From an uncultured Shinella sp. (lineage in GTDB: Bacteria > Pseudomonadota > Alphaproteobacteria > Rhizobiales > Rhizobiaceae), in assembly GCA_946481465.1 (NCBI GenBank), contig CAMLOC010000022.1, positions 1 to 14,472 of the forward strand: 14,472 nt of DNA. Reading direction: 5' to 3'. The position numbers and the translations under genes are program-made. Position 1 is the stretch's first letter. Every line of letters begins with the position of its first letter. Of this stretch, positions 1 to 13,983 are shown in pieces. The notes under the pieces are model-generated. The model was not told the DNA's origin. It ran no database searches and was given only the letters and a program-made list of their open reading frames with translations.

Positions 1-1067
1 GTCGACAGCGCGGCGGCCTGGGCGGTCGAAAGCGTCGCCATGTCGAGACCCGAGGCCTGACGCGCGCTCAACGCGCCGATCTGCGTTGTCGTCAGCCCGC
101 TGACCTGATCGGACGACAGGACGGCCAGCTGGGCGGGCTTGAGCGCGGCGAGCTGAACCGTCGTCAGCGCGCCGACCTGCGCGCTGGAAAGGGCGGCGAT
201 GACGTCGGTTGTGAGGCGCGCGACCACTTGCGTCTTGATGCTGGCGATCTCATCGGTCGAAAACGTCTCGATATCCTCGGCCTCGAGGCCGGCAATGGCA
301 GTGGCCGAGAACGCCGCGATCTGGGTGCTCGTAAGGGCCGCCGTCTGCTCGGACGAAAGGGCCGCGATCTGAAGTGTCTTCAGCCCCGCGATGAAGGCCG
401 TCGACAGGGCTGCGGTCTGGGCGGTCGAAAGTGCCGTCACGTCGAAGCCCGATGCCTGGCGCACGGTCAGCGCAGCCATCTGGGCAGTGCTCAGCGCTTC
501 CACCTGATCAGGGGTGAAGGCGGAGATCTGGGCGACCGAAAGCGCAGCGACCTGCGCCGTCGTCAGCGCGGTGACCTGCTCGGCCGAAAGCCCGGCGATG
601 GCGTCCGTGGTGAGGGCCGGCACCGCCTTGGCACTGATCGCCGCGATCTCGTCGGTCGTGAAGGTCGCGATGTCTTCGGCCGACAGCGCATGGACGCCCC
701 TTACGGAAAAAGCGCCGATCTGCGCGCTCGAGAAGGCTTCGATCTGGCCGGCATCGAGAGCATCGATCTGCTGGGAATAGAGCGCGCTGGCCTGTCCGGT
801 GGTGAGCGCCTGGATATGCTGCGAGGAAAGGTAGGCCATCTGCTCGATCGTCAGCCCCCCGATGGCGCGCGACGACACCGCACTGATCTGCTGCGTGGTG
901 AACGCACCGACATAGCCTGCATCGATGCTTGCGACCTGGCGCGCGTTCAGGACACCGATCTGCTCGCTGCTGAGCGCAGCCACATCCTCTGCCGTCCATG
1001 CCTGGATCGCGGCCGTCGAGAGAGTTCGGATCTGGCTGGTGGAAAGCGAGGGGATGGTCGATGACAT
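1..1067 (-). CDS. Octapeptide-repeat protein, function unknown (3' end outside window)
   Basis: Reading leftwards from an ATG at 1067, an uninterrupted frame of 355 codons reaches the window edge without a stop. A good ribosome-binding site (GGAAGG, 6 nt before the ATG) supports the start. After seven residues (MSSTIPS) the protein is a continuous run of about 44 eight-residue units of the form L-[ST]-[TSA]-x-[QDE]-[IV]-x-[AG], for example LTTAQVAA and LSTAQMAA. Position 1 is Leu in about 31 units and otherwise mostly Phe or Ile. Two five-residue units (FDVTA, LDMAT; residues 208-212 and 341-345) break the phase and lie 133 residues apart, inside a larger repeat. There is no Cys, signal peptide or membrane segment in the visible part. 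The S/T-x-x-Q/E pattern is a classic helix N-cap, so short stacked helices are plausible (inference). I do not recognise a function. A large surface or secreted protein is one possibility, but the C-terminus is not visible. Confidence 0.88.
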   Translation of the reverse strand, partial: MSSTIPSLSTSQIRTLSTAAIQAWTAEDVAALSSEQIGVLNARQVASIDAGYVGAFTTQQISAVSSRAIGGLTIEQMAYLSSQHIQALTTGQASALYSQQIDALDAGQIEAFSSAQIGAFSVRGVHALSAEDIATFTTDEIAAISAKAVPALTTDAIAGLSAEQVTALTTAQVAALSVAQISAFTPDQVEALSTAQMAALTVRQASGFDVTALSTAQTAALSTAFIAGLKTLQIAALSSEQTAALTSTQIAAFSATAIAGLEAEDIETFSTDEIASIKTQVVARLTTDVIAALSSAQVGALTTVQLAALKPAQLAVLSSDQVSGLTTTQIGALSARQASGLDMATLSTAQAAALS

Positions 1068-2691
<1,624 letters not shown>

Positions 2692-2766: not shown

Positions 2767-3942
2767 TTAACGGAAGAGCGTGAGGATGCTTTCCGAGGCG
2801 GAGTTGGCGATCGACAGCGACTGGACGGCGAGCTGCTGCTGGGTCTGCAGGGCCTTCAGGCGGGTCGATTCCTCGTTCATGTCAGCATCGACCAGGCGGC
2901 CGACGCCCGAGTCGATCGAGTCGGTCAGAGCCGAGACGAACTCTTCCTGCAGATCGATGCGCATGCCGATCGAGCCGAGGTCGGCGGCCGCGCTGGTCAT
3001 CAGCGTCAGGGCGTCGTCGACCATCTGGATGAGCTGGTCGAGCTGGCCGCCCGTGGTGGTCGAGGTGATCGTCAGGTCGGAGACCGAAGCGGTGGTCACG
3101 GTGCCGGGCGCGGCCGAGGTGTCGACTGCCCACATCGTGGTGCCGTCGTCGAAGGCGACTTCCTGCGTGGCAACGCCGGACTGGTCGACAGCTTCCACCC
3201 AGACGTCGTCCGAAACCTTGACGTAGCTCAGGCCGCTCGCGCCGCCCGTAGCAGAATCGCCCGTGAAGACGGAGCCGGTGTCGGCGATAACGTCGTCGAT
3301 CGTGTAGGCCTGGACGGTGACGGCCGAAATGACGCCGCCGGTGTTGATGTTCAGCGTGATGCTGTCGTCTTCGATCGCCGTCTGGGTGTCGAGGATCGCG
3401 GTGTCGCCGACGGTGTCGAACAGAACCGACGACGTGCTGAGGTCGTAGTCGACCTTCTTGACCGAGACGTTGCCGGAAGCGTCACGAACGAAGGAGCCGA
3501 CGACGGTCTTCGTCACGGTGCCGCTGGAAAGGTCCGTCTGGAGCCAGTTCTCGCCGGAGAAGGACGCGGCTTCGGAAATGCTGATCAGCTGATCCTGAAG
3601 CTGGGTGATTTCTTCCTGGATCTTGTCCTTGTCGACACCGTCTTCGGTGGCGGCAACGAGCTTGGCCTTGATTTCCTTGACGACCTCGATGGCCGATTCC
3701 ATACCGGCATAGGCCGTGTCGACCTTGGCGGCGCCGAGACCGAGCGCGTCCTGGACGGAAGACAGAGCCGCGTTGTCCGAACGCATGGTCGTTGCGATCG
3801 ACCAATAAGCCGCGTTGTCGGAAGCCGAGCCGACGCGCAGGCCCGAAGAAATCCGGCTCTGGGTGTCTTCCATGCTGCTGGAGATGGAGCGCAGCGTGGA
3901 GAGGGCCGCCATGGCGTTGGTGTTGGTGAGGATGCTGGTCAT
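2767..3942 (-). CDS. Flagellin, filament subunit
   Basis: Structural protein polymerised outside the cell into the flagellar filament. The 391-residue product has a conserved N-terminal region (about 1-150, starting MTSILTNTNAMAAL) and a Ser/Thr/Asp-rich variable middle (about 150-300). The conserved C-terminal region runs from about 300 to the end, including LQTQQQLAVQSLSIAN and ending ESILTLFR. It has no cleavable signal peptide and no Cys, as expected for type III flagellar export. The start is firm: AAAGGGA lies 6 nt before the ATG. It resembles rhizobial FlaA-type flagellins, which form multigene sets, so I do not assign a letter. It lies 235 bp downstream of fliP on the same strand. The gap suggests its own promoter for high late expression, though no clear flagellar promoter was recognised. 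Confidence 0.95.
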   Translation of the reverse strand: MTSILTNTNAMAALSTLRSISSSMEDTQSRISSGLRVGSASDNAAYWSIATTMRSDNAALSSVQDALGLGAAKVDTAYAGMESAIEVVKEIKAKLVAATEDGVDKDKIQEEITQLQDQLISISEAASFSGENWLQTDLSSGTVTKTVVGSFVRDASGNVSVKKVDYDLSTSSVLFDTVGDTAILDTQTAIEDDSITLNINTGGVISAVTVQAYTIDDVIADTGSVFTGDSATGGASGLSYVKVSDDVWVEAVDQSGVATQEVAFDDGTTMWAVDTSAAPGTVTTASVSDLTITSTTTGGQLDQLIQMVDDALTLMTSAAADLGSIGMRIDLQEEFVSALTDSIDSGVGRLVDADMNEESTRLKALQTQQQLAVQSLSIANSASESILTLFR

Positions 3943-11057: not shown

Positions 11058-12347
<1,290 letters not shown>

Positions 12348-12416
12348 AATATCCTCCGGTACGGTCTTTCGCGATCGGGCTTGATCTCGTTTGCTGCCCG
12401 ATTTCATGTGACAGTA

Positions 12417-12555
12417 TTTACATCGCAGCGCACAATCGAGCGAGAGAAAACCGTAAAATCAGCGAAGTAATCGGGTAACGATGTCTTGCCTTTGACAGGC
12501 GAGGTCTGTAAAAAAGTAAATATTGTAAAACTCCTGATCGCGGCAGTGATGTAAA
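12417..12555. promoter_or_regulatory. Shared aceA/regulator control region with TGTAAA-type sites
   Basis: The 220-bp gap between the divergent genes holds several copies of one hexamer. TGTAAA occurs at 12507-12512, 12524-12529 and 12550-12555, AGTAAA at 12515-12520, CGTAAA at 12452-12457 and the inverse TTTACA at 12417-12422. TTTGACAG (12491-12498), 7 nt, CTGTAAAA (12506-12513) is an inverted repeat matching at 7 of 8 positions. A perfect -35 word TTGACA (12492-12497) for the regulator gene lies inside that repeat, with GTAAAT or TAAATA as a weak -10 about 18-19 nt on. Overlap of promoter and repeat suggests autoregulation. That the ScfR-type protein binds here is inferred. Confidence 0.5.
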
Positions 12556-12567
12556 GGATTTGACACG

Positions 12568-13983
12568 GTGGCGGAAAACAAGATCTTTGCCGGCCCGAAG
12601 GTCCGGCGCATCCGCAACGCCCTCGGCCTCACCCAGACGGCGATGGCCGAGGGCCTGTCGATCTCGCCTTCCTATCTCAACCTCATCGAGCGCAACCAGC
12701 GGCCGTTGACGGTGCAGCTCCTCCTGCGCCTCGCCTCCGTCTACAAGGTTGACCTCGACGAGCTGCAGGGCGAAAGCGCCGGCAATGCCCGGCAGCTGCG
12801 CGAGGTCTTCGCCGATCCGCTGCTTTCGGGCGAGCTGCCGGGCGATCACGAGCTGATGGAACTCGCCGACGCCGCGCCGAACGTGGCGAGCGGCATCGTC
12901 AAGCTCTACCGCGCCTATCGCGAGCAGGCCGCCCGCCTCACCGACCTTGCCGACCTGCTCGCCCGAGAGGGCCATGCGACGACGCTGTCGGGCACGTTGC
13001 TGCCGATGGACGAGGTGCGCGACAGGCTGGAGGGTCGTCCCAACTATTTCGGCGCCATCGACGAGGCGGCGGAGCGGTTTCATGCGGCACTGGCGCCGGG
13101 CGACGACCTGGCGAGCGCTCTGAAGGGCTGGCTGCGCAAGGAGCACGGCGTCGTCGTGCGCCTGCTGCCCGTCCACACCATGCCGAACCTGCGCCGCCGC
13201 TTCGACCGCCATTCCATGCGGCTCTTCCTGTCGGAGCGCCTGTCGCCCTTCGACCAGCTGCGCGAGATCGCCATGGAGACGGTGCAGCTCGCCCTGCAGG
13301 AGGAGATCTTCGCCGAGCTCGACGCGCTCGCCTTCTCGACGGCGGAGGCGAAGCGCATCGCCCGCTTCGAGCTGGCGCGCTACGCCGCCCATGCGCTGAT
13401 GATGCCCTATGAGGCCTTCCAGTCGACGGCCCAGCGCGTGCGCTACGACATCGACGTGCTGCGCTCGCGCTTCGGCGTCTCCTACGAGCAGGCGGCGAAC
13501 CGGCTGACCATGCTGCAACGGCCGGGCAGGGCGGGCGTGCCCTTCTTCATGCTGGAGATCGACAATGCCGGCAACCGCTTCCGACGGGCGGGGGCGCAAG
13601 GATTCCCGCAGGCGCGCTTCGGCGGCGGCTGTCCCAAGCTCGGCGTGCACTCCGCCTTCTCGCAGCCGGGGCAGATCCTCGTCGACCGCGTGGAAATGCC
13701 GGACGGCGCCGCGTTCCTGGCGGTCTCGCGCACGCTGGAGGGGCCGCAGGGCGTCTTTGCCGAGCGGGTGCGCCGCACCGCGCTGCTCATCGGCTGCGAT
13801 GCGGCCCATGCGCAGGAGACGGTTTACGGCGAGGCGGTGCGCCGGGACGGGGCGGTGGCGGTGGGAACGGCCTGCCGGCTCTGCGAGCGGCAGGGCTGTC
13901 TTGCCCGCGCCGAACCGCCCGTCACGCGGCCCCTCGGGCTCGACGAAATGGTCGCGGGCCTCAGCCTTTTCGACTTCCAGTGA
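12568..13983 (+). CDS. ScfR-family (RamB/PccR-like) short-chain fatty acyl transcriptional regulator
   Basis: A 471-residue DNA-binding protein of the short-chain fatty acyl regulator family. Relatives control glyoxylate-bypass or propionyl-CoA genes (RamB in Corynebacterium and Mycobacterium, PccR/MccR in Rhodobacter). Residues about 8-65 are an XRE-type helix-turn-helix (RNALGLTQTAMAEGLSISPS, YLNLIERNQRPLT). The middle resembles the ImmA/IrrE-like region, but in place of the HExxH motif it has RFELARYAAHALMMP, so protease activity is unlikely. The C-terminal ScfR domain ends with a Cys cluster (Cys436, Cys439, Cys444; ACRLCERQGC) followed by RAEPP, possibly metal- or ligand-binding. Translation starts at GTG 12568, with AAAGGA 9 nt upstream. 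Its position opposite aceA strongly suggests it regulates aceA. Whether it activates or represses is not shown. Confidence 0.92.
   Translation: MAENKIFAGPKVRRIRNALGLTQTAMAEGLSISPSYLNLIERNQRPLTVQLLLRLASVYKVDLDELQGESAGNARQLREVFADPLLSGELPGDHELMELADAAPNVASGIVKLYRAYREQAARLTDLADLLAREGHATTLSGTLLPMDEVRDRLEGRPNYFGAIDEAAERFHAALAPGDDLASALKGWLRKEHGVVVRLLPVHTMPNLRRRFDRHSMRLFLSERLSPFDQLREIAMETVQLALQEEIFAELDALAFSTAEAKRIARFELARYAAHALMMPYEAFQSTAQRVRYDIDVLRSRFGVSYEQAANRLTMLQRPGRAGVPFFMLEIDNAGNRFRRAGAQGFPQARFGGGCPKLGVHSAFSQPGQILVDRVEMPDGAAFLAVSRTLEGPQGVFAERVRRTALLIGCDAAHAQETVYGEAVRRDGAVAVGTACRLCERQGCLARAEPPVTRPLGLDEMVAGLSLFDFQ

Follow-up and report, generated by a model that had tools for sequence, protein, structure and literature searches.

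OGT and XcOGT, glycosyltransferases of family GT41, modify serine and threonine residues of proteins in the cytosol, and to our knowledge no acceptor is known for many bacterial enzymes of the OGT/SPINDLY type. One precedent links GT41 to secretion: the exoprotein HMW1 is secreted and served by the GT41 enzyme HMW1C, is N-glycosylated at asparagine sequons, and is exported by two-partner secretion (PMC3012730). The cassettes described here resemble that precedent in pairing a GT41 gene with a possibly exported protein but would differ from it in both chemistry and route: no sequon is present in the repeat fragment studied, and it is type I secretion genes that lie near some of its relatives.

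The fragment belongs to a family that already has a name, Pfam PF20080 (ALTTAQ repeat), although the name gives no function. Searches of the open-licence literature, where absence is weak evidence, found no paper on PF20080, ALTTAQ, or HeliScrew and no description of a partnership between ALTTAQ proteins, GT41 enzymes, and sugar enzymes. The new element is this partnership, which joins ALTTAQ genes to one GT41 group and to a lineage-specific sugar enzyme. Here we report, from computation, the repeat, its predicted fold, its intact relatives, its gene association, and the grouping of the GT41 proteins.

An octad repeat of the ALTTAQ family at the edge of the window

The window (the whole stretch of 14,472 nucleotides analyzed) opens on a minus-strand gene that is cut by its left edge (Table 1). 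As the sequence-only reading had stated, the frame runs from its initiator to the edge without interruption, and the first repeat unit begins at residue 8, seven residues past the initiator. Residue identity within the fragment was 0.29, 0.33, and 0.28 at lags of 8, 16, and 24 residues, respectively, and did not exceed 0.111 at any other lag in the range 1 to 23. A relaxed octad motif matched 38 times (2,000 shuffles: mean, 8.2; maximum, 19). The exact motif of the earlier reading fitted six places (shuffle mean, 0.025; maximum, 1), and the register of the octads shifts near residues 208 to 213 and 333 to 346. The earlier observation of about 44 consecutive octads is confirmed in part: the period is real, but the motif is looser than first given and the units do not follow one another strictly. 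At the first slip, six relatives (L004, L005, L007, L008, L011, and L064) carry three residues more than the window in the alignment, whereas L001, L002, and L003, like the window, do not. The ratio dN/dS of the window frame was 0.34 against L001, 0.44 against L003, and 0.29 against L002. We conclude that the octad repeat is genuine, coding, and under constraint at the protein level. A decayed remnant is unlikely for the part seen, given 355 codons without a stop, dN/dS values of 0.29 to 0.44, and intact genes in eight relatives. A phage origin was also considered and rejected; the fragment had no match among 50,697 phage records.

Table 1. Features at the left of the window
Feature	Coordinates	Strand	Basis
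ALTTAQ-repeat protein, N-terminal 355 residues	1..1067 (codons 1067 to 3; ATG start at 1067)	-	PF20080, octad period, AlphaFold, dN/dS <1; open at window edge
First register slip (residues 208-213), 3 residues shorter than six aligned relatives	429..446	-	Alignment
Intergenic, between divergent ALTTAQ and glf genes	1068..1497	.	One sigma-70-like consensus match
UDP-galactopyranose mutase gene glf; divergent to the ALTTAQ gene, an arrangement shared with S. fusca L001	1498..2691	+	PF03275 E 5.2e-79
Flagellin, context only	2767..3942	-	NF009329 E 3.1e-89, 299.5 bits, slightly below cut-off 311

The fragment matched PF20080 over 16 stretches (E 2.8e-62; 206.5 bits against a cut-off of 26.4). Nothing else in Pfam rose above its cut-off, no NCBIfam model matched at 1e-5, and no flagellin, hook, or rod family domain was found on the fragment at those thresholds. 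We found no difference between the window gene and PF20080, and the window protein is a member of that family. The commonest residues across 536 octads from five proteins give the consensus L, S/T, T/S/A, D/A, Q, I/V, A, A. From the window fragment and 11 relatives, AlphaFold predicted a solenoid (pLDDT 93.5, pTM 0.83) in which each octad forms one helix, mostly of 3 to 6 residues, in agreement with the solenoid of one-and-a-half-turn helices proposed from the letters. The 806-residue protein of Shinella fusca, modeled from three sequences, gave a like pattern with less confidence (pLDDT 87.5, pTM 0.58). The only PDB sequence match to the window repeat was 9zem, "HeliScrew4" (E 9.5e-14), likewise an octad protein but a short one, of 120 residues; it was absent among the 50 fold-search matches listed (database copy to April 2026). 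In Foldseek the best eight rows were mesothelin, and importin-alpha and beta-catenin made up most of the VIA-align rows listed. These folds and designed armadillo folds share stacked helices with the model, no row in either search stood clear of unrelated ones, and a new fold is not claimed. The earlier description of a repeat without known function thus holds in that the family name carries none, but the repeat does have a name and one sequence match in the PDB.

Searching the genome contigs returned ten loci. The closest, in S. fusca (L001), is an intact gene whose product is 75% identical to the window fragment. Further intact ALTTAQ genes encode 1199 (L002), 938 (L003), 1820 (L004), 1820 (L005), 1823 (L007), 2223 (L008), and 1143 (L011) residues; the frames of L006 and L009 run past contig ends, and the L010 frame, 760 residues long, is only distantly related. 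A second, longer period of 133 residues is present in the window gene (identity, 0.37), in S. fusca (0.52), and in L002 and L003. In L005, L007, L011, L062, L096, and L093, the long lag that ranks first or close to first is 136 residues (17 octads). Most of the rhizobial ALTTAQ proteins inspected end in a common tail like AVVxAY, and ALFL forms the C-terminus of L092 and of one L094 frame. A C-terminal RTX domain, which the sequence-only reading had suggested looking for, is missing from the full-length S. fusca relative, on which Pfam found PF20080 only. Some other ALTTAQ proteins are fused to RTX, Hint_2, Peptidase_C2, or DUF1217 domains, the last on two proteins.

Several further ALTTAQ frames were noted in passing. 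S. fusca carries a second, longer frame of 2669 codons on a different contig (G001:C2, 109645-114750). On a Pseudoroseomonas plasmid (L094, 1612-6699), the ALTTAQ coding lies in several short adjacent or overlapping frames, which may reflect broken repeats or an assembly problem. A hypothetical protein of the Spiroplasma plasmid psAtri5 (L097, 4245-7697) is 28.6% identical to the window fragment (E 2e-25); its frame has an internal stop under table 11, consistent with the Mollicutes code, and its octad similarity is possibly due to chance.

Association of ALTTAQ genes with one GT41 group and sugar enzymes

At the S. fusca locus, divergent glf and flagellins lie on one side of the 806-residue gene, and the locus also encodes a second ALTTAQ protein (463 residues) and a GT41. 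Of this cassette the window contains the ALTTAQ gene and glf, and a GT41 gene, if its genome has one, would lie past the left edge. The window glf scored 309.9 bits against TIGR00031 (cut-off, 303.75) and is 89% identical to the S. fusca copy; its start is ambiguous, a TTG upstream at 1381 also being in the open frame. The sigma-70-like match between the two genes (1355-1326, minus strand; shuffle mean, 0.2) gives no evidence of function.

A search with the S. fusca GT41 matched 47 of 121 Rhizobiaceae genomes. For 30 of these 47 we read the best match together with at most 8 kb of DNA to either side (one copy per genome, with L001 standing for genome G001), recognizing ALTTAQ genes by octad motif count rather than by the Pfam profile. 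The 30 loci split by identity to the S. fusca GT41 into 12 at ≥60% and 18 at ≤41%. An ALTTAQ frame and glf lay within 8 kb in all 12 close loci, whereas neither was found at any of the 18 distant loci. PF20080 itself was detected in 20 of the 121 genomes. Every one of the 12 with a close GT41 is among these 20 (P = 1.1e-11, uncorrected for kinship), and for each of the 12 the PF20080 matches listed include some that share the contig of the GT41 stretch and lie within or next to it; the close GT41 was absent from the remaining 8 of the 20. At 1e-60, glf matched 28 of the 121 genomes, once each. The 12 best matches (67 to 89%) fell in the same 12 genomes, adjoining GT41, and the next (G025, 61%) lay outside the 20 PF20080 genomes.

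Together with six loci picked for matching (L002, L003, L008, L011, L095, and L096), these 12 make up 18 rhizobial cassette loci. glf was near 16 of them and missing in L008 and L095, and the GT41 gene is immediately 3′ of the ALTTAQ gene in L001, L002, L008, and L011. No GT41 was seen near the ALTTAQ genes in the stretches read of L004, L005, L007, L098, L099, and L100. A PF12248 "Methyltransf_FA" protein accompanies at least six cassettes (L002, L011, L062, L064, L071, and L096). In Rhizobium sp. CCGE531 (L096, 14922-21274), curlin and csgH (curli-type) genes lie just past the ALTTAQ-GT41-glf stretch.

Among plasmids, 60 of the 101 GT41 records were listed, and these 60 include 27 of the 57 ALTTAQ records but not the other 30. 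Taking one best place per record, the two genes lay at most 10 kb apart in 26 of the 27 shared records (the exception being CP131057), which are not independent, because 11 of the 27 are from Cereibacter. When 299 genomes from across the phylum were searched with the GT41 of Cereibacter, 55 genomes matched at 1e-60, with identities of at most 45% in the rows listed; this result counts neither way.

When 49 GT41 proteins were placed in one tree, all 24 ALTTAQ-adjacent enzymes fell on one side of a branch (support, 100/99) and the 25 others on the opposite side, where "one group" means one side of that branch, the root is placed at the midpoint, and the 24 were chosen partly for carrying both genes. 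Their hosts are Rhizobiaceae, Cereibacter, Rhodovastum, Pseudoroseomonas, Niveispirillum, and Pseudomonas. The 25 others include 7 plasmid enzymes without an ALTTAQ frame in the stretches read, and 5 flagellin-adjacent enzymes that form a separate group (99/96). Some distant rows of the tree cover a matched stretch instead of the whole protein, those containing stops being cut to the longest stop-free piece, and for the controls L132 to L134 the longest open frame was taken, its start lying upstream of that of the annotated gene. A 41-protein GT41 tree was also built.

The S. fusca enzyme has a GT41 domain with TPRs, as OGT, XcOGT, and SPINDLY do, and matched all three in the PDB (E 7e-79, 1e-74, and 5e-49, respectively). 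It may differ from them in its donor, another sugar being suggested by the glf or UDP-xylose synthase gene that adjoins GT41 in the cassettes. The UDP-xylose synthase genes are near the pair in two Rhodospirillales loci (L094 and L131), whose GT41s cluster together (100/97).

These associations could have arisen by co-transfer, with GT41 and glf building a surface polysaccharide or modifying another protein and the ALTTAQ gene being a mere neighbor in a surface island. Such an origin would fit the many ALTTAQ genes that lack a neighboring GT41, the role in polysaccharide synthesis for which glf is best known, and the further sugar genes of the Cereibacter and Pseudomonas stretches. However, the pairing spans alpha- and gammaproteobacteria and tracks a single GT41 group, the Rhizobiaceae loci divide 12 of 12 against 0 of 18, and the structurally solved GT41 relatives, judging by their PDB names, act on proteins. 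We regard co-transfer as unlikely.

Flagellar genes near the cassettes

The main rival to a glycosylated, exported repeat protein is a flagellar role, because flagellin is near 3 of the 18 rhizobial cassettes (L001, L011, and L064), the window shares the arrangement of L001, and DUF1217 fusions exist. The flagellar type III apparatus would then export the ALTTAQ product, which would act as a sheath, a ruler, or an accessory to motility, and GT41 and glf would decorate flagellin rather than the solenoid. In both the window and S. fusca, the ALTTAQ gene sits inside a flagellar cluster; to the right of the flagellin, the window carries fliP, flgH, flgI, and flgG, followed by isocitrate lyase and a RamB-like regulator. 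The Rhodovastum ALTTAQ gene also adjoins flagellar genes, the DUF1217 domain borne by two ALTTAQ proteins is annotated beside flagellar genes in L011, and flagellins adjoin 5 of the 18 distant GT41s. Against this role, no flagellin is near 15 of the 18 rhizobial cassettes (16 loci judged from the stretches read, L095 and L096 from annotation tables), the GT41s next to flagellins belong to a different group from those next to ALTTAQ genes, and several nonrhizobial cassettes adjoin type I secretion genes. On balance we consider a flagellum-associated function improbable.

Three further arrangements were noted. The distant GT41s beside flagellin genes (L079, L082, L086, L088, and L089) are, by their position, candidate flagellin-modifying enzymes. 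On the Rhodovastum plasmid (L093, 1-14666), a gene for a 2913-residue ALTTAQ protein adjoins flagellar genes and is followed by a GT41 gene. In the window, at 11058-13983, isocitrate lyase (minus strand) is divergent to the RamB-like acetate regulator (plus strand; 330.7 bits, below the cut-off of 700).

Proposed glycosylation and export of the repeat protein

Neighboring genes suggest, without proving it, that ALTTAQ genes encode sugar-decorated, exported rod proteins. In the mechanism we propose, each octad would form one short helix starting at its serine or threonine, and the helices would stack into a rod, which a small cassette would make as its structural component. The GT41 enzyme of the cassette, with its TPRs and O-GlcNAc-transferase-like domain, would place sugar on serine and threonine residues of the solenoid inside the cell, from a UDP-sugar made by the product of the adjoining gene: presumably UDP-galactofuranose, via glf, in most rhizobial cassettes and the product of UDP-xylose synthase in the two Rhodospirillales. 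The decorated rod might then leave the cell with no signal peptide removed, through type I secretion in loci that encode it alongside, and act at or beyond the cell surface. We give slightly less than even chances to this reading, in which the solenoid receives an O-linked, locally made sugar from its own GT41 and is then exported.

The composition of the repeat bears on the linkage. The window fragment contains 85 serine and threonine residues and no N-x-S/T sequon; the 806-residue S. fusca protein likewise has none, and counts in 11 other ALTTAQ proteins ranged from 0 to 9. HMW1C-type N-glycosylation was rejected for the window fragment, which is devoid of sequons. We also looked for serine and threonine enrichment in GT41-linked ALTTAQ copies and found none. 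Because the content is equal with and without a GT41 neighbor, the richness of the repeat in these residues is no evidence for glycosylation.

With regard to export, type I secretion genes (ABC and HlyD) are near the pair in four of five nonrhizobial cassettes (L091, L092, L094, and L131) and were not found in the fifth, L093. Among the 18 rhizobial cassettes, an ABC-HlyD pair accompanies one (L063), with none in the other 17 stretches read, and no such genes were seen in the window. The sequence-only reading had seen no signal peptide, and the N-termini of the window gene and its relatives, judged by eye, agree. These last observations are also what one would expect of an intracellular scaffold, a solenoid that binds cytosolic partners, is modified by GT41 or serves it as a platform, and never leaves the cell. 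A scaffold would, however, leave unexplained the type I genes adjoining five cassettes, L063 among them, the RTX or Hint domains borne by some ALTTAQ proteins, and the short conserved C-terminal tails of most rhizobial copies inspected, and we judge it very unlikely.

If the solenoid is indeed glycosylated and exported, a Pfam repeat with no assigned function would acquire one and GT41 a new donor sugar, with a simple solenoid displaying sugars at an eight-residue period. A broader proposition is more doubtful, and we think it rather unlikely to hold: ALTTAQ solenoids would be dedicated acceptors of a single GT41 lineage, the donor being whichever UDP-sugar the cassette makes, UDP-galactofuranose in rhizobia (through glf) and UDP-xylose in Rhodospirillales. 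Such a modular scheme (one rod, one OGT-like enzyme, and one sugar), if real, would build a periodic extracellular glycan array in which each octad could offer a site. Gene context points to a putative acceptor family, a group of enzymes, and, for each lineage, a candidate donor. Among 14 control genomes, the sole PF20080-positive one was that of Caulobacter vibrioides, a tractable host.
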